From NCBI GenBank assembly GCA_944384505.1, contig CALWTQ010000010.1:1-64000 (forward strand): a DNA stretch of 64,000 nucleotides, written 5' to 3'. Below, one piece after another: positions 30,710 to 52,777 of this stretch. The position numbers and the translations under genes were made by a program. The notes under the pieces were generated by a model, which was not told the DNA's origin, made no database searches, and saw nothing but the letters and a program-made list of their open reading frames with translations. The DNA is from an uncultured Mediterraneibacter sp. (lineage in GTDB: Bacteria > Bacillota > Clostridia > Lachnospirales > Lachnospiraceae). Positions within the stretch are counted from its first letter, which is position 1. The number at the start of each line of letters is the position of its first letter.

Positions 30710-31180
30710 CAGCTATTTAGTGCACTAACATATCCTGTGACTCACGTCCGGAAGCGGAGCGGATGTTTGAAACGTATTCTTGGAGAGGGGACGTGTGTGT
30801 ACTGCTCCGTTCCGGAATCCGGGAAGAATCTAAGAAGCCGGAGAGCTGTTTAAATACAAAGCGGCGCTCCGGGCAACTCGCTCCGCTCAGACAATCCCTG
30901 CGCACCGCTTAACAACAGCTCTCCGACTTCTAATATCTTCCATCAGATTCCTCCAAAGTCACAGTCCCCACACGTCCCCTCTCCAAGAACTTACGCTTCA
31001 AACATCCCCTCCACTTCCTGCGCATCTCCTGTCGGAAGTGCCATTGCCCAAATAGGCTGAAACGCGAAGTTGGCGCGGCTTGAAGTCTTTCCATTACGAA
31101 AGTCTTCCGGCCGCGCCTGCTGCTTGTAGCAGCTATATATTCATTAGCTCCCGGCCTGAAAAGCCCAGAAAACAGCCCAA
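30710..31180 (+). repeat. Large structured non-coding repeat, unit A (471 bp)
   Basis: Starts CAGCTATTTAGTGCACTAAC (30710-30729), nearly the same 20-bp end as the element at 51882-52647. It contains a giant hairpin: the 21-base arm at 30777-30797 pairs perfectly with 30969-30989, with further paired blocks inside (GGAGAGCTGTT with AACAGCTCTCC) and flanking paired blocks outside (GGATGTTTGAA with TTCAAACATCC). The apical segment reads CAACTCGCTCCGCTCAGACA. A second GGCGCGGC...GCCGCGCC hairpin lies near 31075-31120, and the unit ends GAAAAGCCCAGAAAACAGCC. The same blocks occur in the same order in the reverse complement of 52175-52647. No gene is evident in it. Confidence 0.8.
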
Positions 31181-36447: not shown

Positions 36448-36587
36448 CGTCTGACGTCTCCTTTCATAACTACAGCTACGCGGCACATCCTTTGTGCCCA
36501 CACACTTATAGTCAACCGTTTACGGCGGCTGGTAGAGACGTTCAACCGATTATGAACCTATATAAGTACACATATTTTCTTTCTTGT

Positions 36588-39478: not shown

Positions 39479-39504
39479 AACCACGTAATTAAACAAAATA
39501 CATT

Positions 39505-39640
39505 ATTTCGGTAGGTGAGGTTACCACAGGGATTGGGGAAAAACCCCGAAGATTGCTGCCGCGAGATTGTGGAGACACAATAAGATGGTCAGCAGGCTGT
39601 GTCGTGAAGGTGCAGCCTAATGCAATTGATATGCCCTGTG
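39505..39640 (+). promoter_or_regulatory. M-box (ykoK) magnesium riboswitch
   Basis: The leader contains the M-box hallmarks in order: GGTAGGTGAGG near 39510, a variable GGGG-AAAA-CCCC stem, GCTGCCGC, GATGGTCAGCAGGCTG, and the closing GGTGCAGCCTAATGC near 39617-39631. M-boxes fold when Mg2+ is high and stop transcription of Mg transporter genes. The gene downstream is mgtE and a terminator follows at 39703-39730, so the assignment is mutually supported. Confidence 0.88.
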
Positions 39641-39702
39641 ATACTAAAGCTTGAACGATGCATACTGCTCATATTATTCCTCATTATGGGATAATTCATT
39701 TC

Positions 39703-44778: not shown

Positions 44779-45110
44779 AAAGAAAAACCCTGAGCAAAAT
44801 GCTCAGGGCGAATATATCATCCGTGTTACCACCTAAATTCAGAGAAAGCTCTCTGCACTCTGCCGGTACGGGAACCTTACTGCCGCAGCTGTCGTCCAGC
44901 CAGCCCGCATATATTGTCCGATACCGCTTCCCTGTAACGTAGGAAAAACGTTGAAGCCTACTTAGCATAAATGCCGTTCAGTTCACTGCTCGAAGGCTAC
45001 CTTCCACAGCGTCCTCACGGGGATTCTCACCGGCCATCCCCTCTCTTTGCATCAGAAGCTATGTACTCCTCCCTGTCACTGCATTTCGTCTATGGTTTAA
45101 AAGCTGAAAT
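44779..45110 (-). promoter_or_regulatory. T-box leader with antiterminator/terminator upstream of ilvB
   Basis: On the minus strand the conserved T-box segment TAGGTGGTAACACGG (44837-44823 region) precedes a CCCTGAGC-GCTCAGGG hairpin (44788-44808) followed by TTTTTCTTTT, the terminator. Upstream are a stem I with GGCCGGTGAGAATCC-type conserved parts and GAAGGTAGCCTTCGAGC. GTA (Val) is a candidate specifier in this last segment, but I am not certain of it. Uncharged tRNA should favour read-through into ilvB-ilvN. Confidence 0.88.
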
Positions 45111-49093: not shown

Positions 49094-49942
49094 TTATACT
49101 GCCACCGGTATGTTTTTGATCTGCGGATGGGTTTCATAATTGTCAAGCCTTACATCATCCGGCGTAAACTCATAGAAATCCTTAATTTCCGGATTCAGCC
49201 AGAACACCGGCGCCGGAAGCGGCTCTCTCTGAATCAGCTCCTCTACAAGAGGAATATGCCTGTCATAGATGTGCGCGTCCGCGATCACGTGCACCAGCTC
49301 TCCTGCCCGCATGCCGCACACCTGCGCCAGCATATGGAGGAGCACCGCGTACTGGCATACATTCCAGTTGTTCGCTGTAAGCACATCCTGGGACCTCTGG
49401 TTTAGAATCCCGTTCAGCACCAGGACGTCGCTGTCTTTCTCCTTTGTCACGTTAAATGTCATACTGTATGCGCACGGATACAGATTCATCTCATGGAGAT
49501 CCTGATGTACATACAGATTCGTCATGATCCTTCTGCTGTACGGATTATTCTTAAGATCATAGATCACCCGGTCTGTCTGATCCATCATGCCCTCTTTATA
49601 CTGATGCTTCACGCCCATCTGATAGCCATATGCCTTGCCGATTGATCCTGTTTCATCCGCCCAGCTGTCCCAGATATGGCTCTTTAAATCGTGTACATTA
49701 TTAGACTTTTTCTGCCATATCCAGAGCATCTCATCCACACAGCTTTTAATGGCTGTGCGCCGGAGGGTCAGAGCCGGAAATTCCTTAGAAAGGTCATACC
49801 GGTTTACCACTCCGAATTTCTTAACTGTATAGGCGGACGTGCCGTCCGCCCAGACAGGACGCACTTTCTCTCCCTCTGTGCTTGTTCCATTCTCAATAAT
49901 GTCCCTGCACATATCTATAAACACTTTATCTGCGTAACTCAT
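49094..49942 (-). CDS. thyA: Thymidylate synthase
   Basis: Methylates dUMP to dTMP with methylene-tetrahydrofolate. The 282 residues hold the dUMP-binding and catalytic region MNLYPCAYSMTFNV, with the nucleophile Cys after Pro, then NQRSQDVLTANNWNVCQYAV and HVIADAHIYDRHI, all ThyA landmarks. The residue after the catalytic Cys is Ala rather than the usual His, a variation seen in some branches. With folA directly downstream the folate cycle for dTMP is complete. The gene is 18 bases from the marR stop. Confidence 0.93.
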   Translation of the reverse strand: MSYADKVFIDMCRDIIENGTSTEGEKVRPVWADGTSAYTVKKFGVVNRYDLSKEFPALTLRRTAIKSCVDEMLWIWQKKSNNVHDLKSHIWDSWADETGSIGKAYGYQMGVKHQYKEGMMDQTDRVIYDLKNNPYSRRIMTNLYVHQDLHEMNLYPCAYSMTFNVTKEKDSDVLVLNGILNQRSQDVLTANNWNVCQYAVLLHMLAQVCGMRAGELVHVIADAHIYDRHIPLVEELIQREPLPAPVFWLNPEIKDFYEFTPDDVRLDNYETHPQIKNIPVAV

Positions 49943-51881: not shown

Positions 51882-52174
51882 CAGCTATTTAGTTCACTAA
51901 CGTCCTTTGGCAAAACGTCCGAAAACAGAGGCAATTCTCAAAACGTATTCTGCGGGGATGGAGGATGGCTCTGGGCTTCGCTCCAGGGGATAAGGGAAAC
52001 TAGGAAGCTGCGAATGCGGACTAAATACAAGGACAGCAGGTGAACAACTCGCTTTAGCTCAGACAAGTTCACCTGCTGTCCTAACGTCCACCTCCGCAGC
52101 TTCCTAGTTTCACTAATCTCCTTCCGAAGGCGCCCGTCGCCCTCCTCCATCCCCGCAGAATCTTTCTCGAAATG
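51882..52174 (+). repeat. Large structured repeat, left partial unit of element B
   Basis: Begins CAGCTATTTAGTTCACTAAC (51882-51901). It contains a giant hairpin from 51947 to 52161: outer arms 51947-51967 and 52141-52161 match at 19 of 21 positions, the middle arms GAAACTAGGAAGCTGCG (51996-52012) and 52095-52111 are perfect, and inner arms AGGACAGCAGGTGAAC and its complement flank the apical CAACTCGCTTTAGCTCAGAC. The stem sequences are unlike those of the other two units, but the apical loop is shared. It stops where the tail of the oppositely oriented unit (GAAAAGCCCAGAAAACAGCC) begins. Confidence 0.8.
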
Positions 52175-52647
52175 GGGCTGTTTTCTGGGCTTTTCAAATC
52201 GGATGTCAGTGAATATATAGCTGCCACAAGAAGCAGGCGCGGCCGGAAGGCTTTCGCAGCGAAAAGCCCTCAAGCCGCGCCAATTGCGCTTTACAGCCTG
52301 TTTAGGGCAGTAACATTTCCGACAGGAAATGCGCAGGAAGCGGAGCGGACGATTTGAGTATGCTTTCTGGGGGAAGGAGACAGCCGGGAGATGTGACTTT
52401 GGAAGAATCTGCTGAAAATCTTGAGGGCGAAGAGATGTTGTTAAGCAGTGCGGGGAGACTTGTCTGAGCGAAGCGAGTTGCTCCCCGTGCTGCTTTGTCC
52501 TTAAACAGCTCTTCGGCCTGTTAGATTTTCCAGATTCTGGAACGGAACATCGCACGGCTGTCTCCTTTTCACAGAATACGCACTGCAAAACATTCGCTCC
52601 GCTTCCGGACACATTTTGACGGAAAGTGTTAGTGAACTAAATAGCTG
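52175..52647 (-). repeat. Large structured repeat, full right unit of element B (473 bp)
   Basis: On the minus strand it starts CAGCTATTTAGTTCACTAAC (52647-52628), identical to the left end of element B. It shares with unit A, in order: GTCCGGAAGCGGAGCG, the giant hairpin (here 52365-52576, arms with GGAGACAGCC and GGCTGTCTCC), the apical CAACTCGCTTCGCTCAGACA, CTTCCTGCGCAT-TCCTGTCGGAA, the GGCGCGGC...GCCGCGCC hairpin, GCAGCTATATATTCA and GAAAAGCCCAGAAAACAGCC. The length of 473 bp equals that of unit A within a few bases. It lies immediately downstream of tRNA-Gly. Confidence 0.82.
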
Positions 52648-52704: not shown

Positions 52705-52777
52705 AGCGACAGACGGGGCTCGAACCCGCGACCCCGACCTTGGCAAGGTCGTACTCTACCAACTGAGCCACTGTCGC
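52705..52777 (-). tRNA. tRNA-Gly (GCC)
   Basis: The minus strand reads a complete 73-nt cloverleaf: acceptor GCGACAG/CTGTCGC with discriminator T, D-arm GCTCAGTTGGTAGAGTA, anticodon stem CGACC/GGTCG around TTGCCAA (anticodon GCC), and T-arm GCGGG-TTCGAGC-CCCGT. CCA is not encoded. It is a solitary tRNA with its own terminator. Confidence 0.97.

Follow-up and report, generated by a model that had tools for sequence, protein, structure and literature searches.

Giant fold-back hairpin repeats of a Mediterraneibacter genome: probable copies of a mobile element with a loop found in distant phyla

Among the described bacterial repeats, MITEs such as MITEPsy1 are short, gene-free, bounded by terminal inverted repeats, present in many copies and associated with a target duplication (PMC3189936). 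REPINs (PMC3116915) and the GTAG/CGTC-tagged REPs (PMC3733652) are inverted pairs of palindromes that are intergenic, dispersed and found in several phyla, with REP units of 20–40 bp, and IS66 elements generally generate 8-bp target duplications (PMC3916326). The repeat considered here lies in a 64,000-nucleotide stretch of an uncultured Mediterraneibacter sp. (contig CALWTQ010000010.1, positions 1 to 64,000; the window), and its layout works like that of a MITE or a REPIN. As in MITEs, there are 20-bp inverted ends (in copy 2 and in many others), a length of 766 bp and ORFs without a Pfam match; the target duplication of MITEs is matched by relatives in another genus, g47, whereas the copies of the window's own genome have none above control. 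It differs from MITEs in that the interior is a hairpin core whose loops are kept over genera, and the apical loop over phyla, and in that the arms of these elements evolve in concert. The two inverted palindromes of a REPIN are present as hairpins A and C, but the units here are 100–350 bp as opposed to 20–40 bp, no association with RAYT was found over 71 genomes, and the g47 relatives, unlike REPINs, have 8-bp target duplications. That length of duplication is shared by the IS66 family and the g47 elements, and an IS66-like subfamily has ends (GTTACTGTTCA) that resemble those of the g47 elements; however, no transposase lies inside the element, the IS66-like gene of the window's genome was not found in the g47 genomes G417 and G103, and the window's ends are different.

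The original prediction described two colinear units of about 471 bp (30710–31180 and 52175–52647) with a common 20-bp end. Both units are real, about 471 bp of them being alignable together with 22 further copies, and the end pattern CAGCTATWTANTNCACTNAC was found without mismatch at 30710 on the + strand and at 52628 on the − strand (three matches in the window versus 0.26 expected). The length, in contrast, was too short, as copy 2 extends to 51882, where an inverted end is located. The complete element (51882–52647) is thus 766 bp with 20-bp terminal inverted repeats, and consists of an end, giant hairpin A, a small GC-rich hairpin, giant hairpin C in the opposite orientation, and the inverted end. 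In copy 1 the similarity to other copies stops at about 31180 and the right part is missing. The features are as follows.

30710–31180, + strand: copy 1, left part (left end, hairpin A, GC-rich hairpin and inner repeat), from the alignment with 23 copies
30710–30729, + strand: left terminal repeat of copy 1, from the end-pattern search
30750–31018, + strand: inverted repeat forming giant hairpin A of copy 1, from the opposite-strand self-match and fold
30875–30893, + strand: apical loop motif AACTCGCTCCGCTCAGACA of copy 1, from the motif search
31072–31117, + strand: small GC-rich hairpin of copy 1, from sequence reading and fold
51882–52647, − strand: copy 2, the complete 766-bp element, from the inverted ends and the recurrence in the genome of end pairs about 760 bp apart
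52628–52647, − strand: left terminal repeat of copy 2, from the end-pattern search
52298–52644, − strand: giant hairpin A of copy 2, from the opposite-strand self-match and fold
52461–52479, − strand: apical loop motif of hairpin A of copy 2, from the motif search
52236–52281, − strand: small GC-rich hairpin of copy 2, from sequence reading and fold
51882–52223, + strand: giant hairpin C, the second unit, in the opposite orientation, from the opposite-strand self-match
52047–52066, + strand: apical loop of hairpin C, a variant with one extra base (L031)
51882–51901, + strand: right terminal repeat of copy 2, the inverted left end, from the end-pattern search

The perfect 21-bp arm predicted for the giant hairpin is present, but its proposed extent of about 213 bp has to be enlarged, because the match of copy 1 to its own reverse complement spans 30750–31018; the GC-rich hairpin was located in both copies as expected. 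Folding z-scores against shuffles are −14.4 for copy 1 and −10.5 for copy 2. The view that no convincing gene is present also stands, since the ORFs that cross the copies (62 and 224 amino acids) have no Pfam match at E ≤ 0.1. Elsewhere in the window, Rfam models match a purine riboswitch (36489–36585), an M-box (39500–39668), a T-box leader (44801–45088) and a tRNA gene (52705–52777); 57 bp separate the end of the tRNA gene from copy 2.

In the window's genome (3.95 Mb in 141 contigs), the end pattern has 351 matches with up to two mismatches, as opposed to three for the reversed pattern, and the apical loop has 172 as opposed to none. At least 40 same-strand copies of 82–100% identity, some of them partial, were recorded (40 of 288 candidates were scored), so the repeat family that had been postulated is real but far exceeds two copies. 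In the sampled contigs, end pairs with a spacing of about 760 bp are found repeatedly, together with shorter variants of 157–598 bp. The flanking sequence varies between copies, and none of 25 elements placed in 0.85 Mb lies inside a called gene, in agreement with the proposal of dispersed intergenic repeats; it should be noted that the gene calls were simple and ORF-based and that ORFs of <260 amino acids overlapping an element were not counted as genes, so that insertions into short genes would be missed. The gaps that hold these 25 elements are tandem in 16 cases, divergent in five and convergent in four, a distribution that is the same as the background of 318 element-free gaps (196, 65 and 57, respectively), and a role as terminator judged from flanking gene orientation was discarded. 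An 8-bp target duplication is seen at ≥7/8 positions in 7 of 37 own-genome copies, against 20% in the control, so none stands above control. Mobility in this genome is nevertheless likely, as judged from copy number, differing flanks and inverted ends, and the repeat to which the window's hairpin belongs, with copies numbering well above a hundred, is probably mobile.

More direct indications of movement come from G417 and G103, which hold 289-bp relatives with one hairpin. Of 35 loop occurrences, 8 that lack one or both ends were dropped; for the remaining 27 elements, the 8 bases directly outside the two ends agree as a direct repeat at all 8 positions in 16, at 7 in 6 and at fewer in 5, whereas exchanged pairs never agree at 8/8 and do so at 7/8 in 0.27%; no exact duplications of 5, 6, 7, 9, 10 or 11 bases were found for these elements. 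The exact 8-bp duplications point to a DDE-type reaction. For one G417 insertion, the orthologous locus of G103 has both flanks, 21 bases apart, without the element, but this empty site is not clean, about 30 junction bases being different as well; a second candidate empty locus was matched on the left side only. Mobility of the 289-bp relatives is strongly supported by these comparisons. The non-autonomous mobile element of the original prediction, for which empty sites and target duplications were to be sought, is therefore well founded in g47 (22 of 27 duplications and one site without the element), whereas in the window's genome the duplications remain at the control level.

The arms of the g47 elements were compared only in the 21 that are exactly 289 bp long. 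Within an element, the two 60-base arms are identical at 55–60 positions, compared with a median of 31 between elements (n = 21), and 15 nearest-neighbor pairs have 85 mirrored, 29 one-arm and 3 mixed differences. The two 14-base ends are identical in 14 of the 21 elements, with seven different sequences among those, and the median likeness is 0.90 for cores as opposed to 0.53 for arms. Counts by subfamily (59 shared and 14 single; 294 and 28) mix subfamilies owing to a loose pattern, and the nearest-neighbor counts were relied on for this reason. The g47 arms evolve in concert. Insertion of the element at pre-existing host hairpins was also considered and dropped, because conserved sequence runs on beyond the variable stems in G171 and the g47 duplications are located outside the arms.

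A search of the genome and of related Lachnospiraceae, the course that had been proposed, gave many copies, and relatives in other genera. DNA matches to the element are present in 11 of 58 genomes of the genus, its own included, and the apical loop is found in 33 of 397 family genomes and 31 of 334 genera, the 33 including at least one unrelated tandem array (G328). Loci from ten other family genomes give long hairpins on folding, in which the loop sits at the tip or close to it. A TAA.../AAC internal loop about 15 pairs from the tip is found in 12 of 45 parsed hairpins, all from Lachnospiraceae (genera g1, g47, g115 and g52, and locus L214), and is absent in several other hairpins of the family. 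In an alignment of 35 cores (26 rows from nine genomes of g1, four from two of g47, three from one of g115, one from one of g52, and one from a Lachnospiraceae genome of unknown genus), the internal-loop columns are nearly invariant, with TAA and C in 35 of 35 rows and the opposite AAC in 34, 33 and 35, and the 3' CAAAGTCAC loop columns are kept in 29–35 rows, whereas the mean majority share over 76 stem columns is 0.64. RNAalifold finds 36 pairs in these cores, with double changes in 34. When a mini-hairpin is included, double changes are seen in 36 of 39 pairs and 377 cells, compared with 121 cells in shuffles and at most 101 in slid structures, although the structure was derived from the sequences on which it was scored and one control was contrary, the 86 pair types being reached in 78 of 500 shuffles. 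The mini-hairpin lies inside the apical loop, where column pairs 88–96 and 89–95 change on both sides. Stems that are private to each copy and yet self-complementary are also found in G137 and G171, and, judged by eye, in the Peptococcaceae genome G459.

The apical loop extends well beyond this family. An exact-loop scan of genome contigs gave at least 118 stretches, compared with an estimate of about 7 expected by chance in the whole collection; as the loop was the search key, its own conservation in this set is given. It is carried on unrelated self-complementary stems in Pseudomonadota, Bacteroidota, Nitrospirota and Fusobacteriota, and the taxa among the matches listed include Marinobacter, Luteimonas, Stenotrophomonas, Variovorax, Polaromonas, Ralstonia, Sphingobacterium, Parabacteroides, Bacteroides, Nitrospira, Selenomonas, Fusobacterium, Peptococcaceae and Lachnospiraceae. 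A flanking stem score of ≥8 is reached by 82 of 131 loop occurrences but by 4% when arms are swapped between occurrences, indicating that each stem is complementary to itself but not to those of other occurrences. In 21 genomes chosen because the loop is present, there are 3–144 matches each (≤1 mismatch), and the reversed loop is absent from 20 of these and occurs five times in the genome with 144. Paired loops in opposite orientation lie close together, as in the window's element, at L138, L142, L150, L154, L167 and L187. The TAAC internal loop is not enriched outside Lachnospiraceae (TTAAC 12 of 131 versus 7 shuffled; TAAC 14 versus 21). A partner gene was sought beside the 118 loci, where the largest shared cluster comprised 12 loci and was transporter-like, with nothing specific. 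Complementarity of the loop to Escherichia coli rRNA does not exceed that of shuffles, and spread by viruses, phages or plasmids was set aside, as 2.9 million viral contigs contain seven loop stretches and phage and plasmid records gave no hit for the 766-bp element. In L145, L147, L164, L176, L203, L216 and other cross-phylum loci, a small hairpin is located upstream of the main hairpin, and it is possible that its loop pairs with bases just downstream to form a pseudoknot.

The only PF03050 match in the window's genome is at locus L126 (97.9 bits, cut-off 23.1), which scores 160.8 bits against the NCBIfam IS66 model, below its cut-off of 180. This gene is flanked by perfect 14-bp inverted repeats (GTTACTGTTCACAC), and similar ends are found in its relatives from G126, G355 and G108. 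The GTTACTGTTCA ends of the IS66-like subfamily resemble those of the g47 elements, one of which (L265) starts with the 12 bases of the L126 end; most other g47 ends fit GTWACNGTTCA, with which the window's own ends have little beyond GTTCAC in common. An L126-like gene is not a convincing partner of the loop, being present in 4 of 31 loop-bearing and 8 of 40 loop-free family genomes (the 31 are the 33 without G328 and the doubtful G386) and undetected in G417 and G103, and an IS66-like gene is not a general partner, as G137, with 13 loops, lacks a PF03050 match. A different repeat, terminated by GTTACTGTTCAGAGG, is located at several contig edges of G417, and in two pairs of these edges the same 8 bases lie outside it. 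This repeat is a candidate autonomous element that may use the same chemistry as the g47 elements; a search of 14 small contigs, some of them read in part, did not recover its body.

The explanation that we favor, with moderate confidence, is that the units are a non-autonomous mobile DNA element composed of giant fold-back hairpins, MITE-like and, in layout, REPIN-like. A putative transposase encoded elsewhere would act on the terminal inverted repeats and insert the element between genes, the mover in g47 being presumably a DDE-type transposase with IS66-like ends. The element may at times be folded on itself, as a single strand or a cruciform, and in this state one arm would be copied or mismatch-repaired from the other, as the mirrored changes suggest, so that the stems could drift freely and yet remain complementary. 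The apical and internal loops would be kept by selection, and their conservation points to a widespread factor that presumably recognizes them in the extruded hairpin. That all such loci form one class of mobile DNA hairpins spanning phyla, with the loops of the extruded hairpin, the apical one common to all, recognized by a widespread host or helper factor, movement or repair in the folded form, arms rewritten at each passage into private stems, and ends borrowed from different local transposases, is a more tentative proposal that we regard as possible but not probable. The other part of the original prediction, a large structured RNA family, finds agreement in the conservation of structure and loops. 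According to this reading, the hairpin would be transcribed and act in trans or in cis, with mobility merely spreading it; the strong covariation, the internal loops that are invariant across genera, the two-pair mini-hairpin with paired changes and the presence of the loop in several phyla all agree with it. However, selected RNA is expected to show G-U above A-C at consensus pairs, and the counts are 80 versus 126 cells in the own A units, 64 versus 97 in the own C units and 17 versus 33 in the g47 core, and are about equal for single-copy cells (25 versus 28, 18 versus 22, and 8 versus 7, respectively). An RNA read from the loop strand gains no support from these counts, which fit folded DNA with mismatch correction. 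The arm changes are also mostly mirrored and not one-sided, and Rfam has no match at the gathering score in either copy or in 16 cross-phylum loci, the matches at E ≤ 10 in the window's copies being weak and far below gathering, in keeping with the original view that this is no named RNA family. Assignment of the cross-phylum hairpins to the "skipping-rope" RNA was not borne out, as there is no Rfam match. We therefore consider the RNA reading rather unlikely.

It is less likely still that the repeat is a passive fold-back sequence, without function or present mobility in the window's species, whose arms are kept alike by replication slippage (quasi-palindrome correction). The control-level target duplications in the own genome, own copies that are only 82–95% alike, and mirrored changes that require no selection are in accord with it, but correction alone should erase asymmetric internal loops, whose letters persist across genera, and the recurrence of the loop on unrelated stems in distant phyla and the transposition of the g47 relatives argue against it. 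Movement of a REPIN as a single strand by a Y1/RAYT transposase would suit the two inverted hairpin units, the intergenic location and the high copy number, but is very improbable in view of the 8-bp target duplications in g47 and units of 100–350 bp, and because neither gene is associated with the loop over the 71 genomes (31 loop-bearing, 40 loop-free): Y1 genes are present in 18 of 31 versus 26 of 40, and long weak-scoring RAYT-like frames (≥200 amino acids) in 6 of 31 versus 9 of 40. No description of this element was found by topic searches, nor were the loop and 5'-module sequences found, in a searched literature that covers few subscription journals, and the searches made did not give any of the outcomes that the original prediction had named as speaking against it, such as a restriction to these copies or identity with a known rRNA, group II intron, IS or Rfam family. 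If the mobile hairpin element is real, intergenic repeats of five or more bacterial phyla would carry one hairpin motif, with over a hundred copies in some gut bacteria; its mirrored mutations would record how often such DNA has folded inside cells and would thereby provide a natural test of whether cruciforms or hairpins form in vivo, and its invariant loops would point to a binding factor that is open to direct search.

Several loci depart from the standard arrangement. In G103, L331–L335 lack the core of the g47 element and comprise a 67-bp palindrome made of its arms only, together with isolated single arms, and in the congener loci L036, L040, L046 and L055 the element is adjoined by an additional large hairpin module that has a repeated sequence of its own. 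In some own-genome copies, 14–16 bp of the terminal sequence are repeated once more immediately beyond one end, which may be that of either side (L006, L009, L025, L027, L029 and L030; G000:C1:4298, C15:48771, C17:48614 and C6:48192). At G000:C15:48787–50219 (L029), element ends 1.43 kb apart flank an IS200-like Y1 transposase match (49353–49709), apparently an IS inserted into a copy of the element. Copies L028 and L403 look chimeric, with arms of different types, as would be expected from recombination at the loop.
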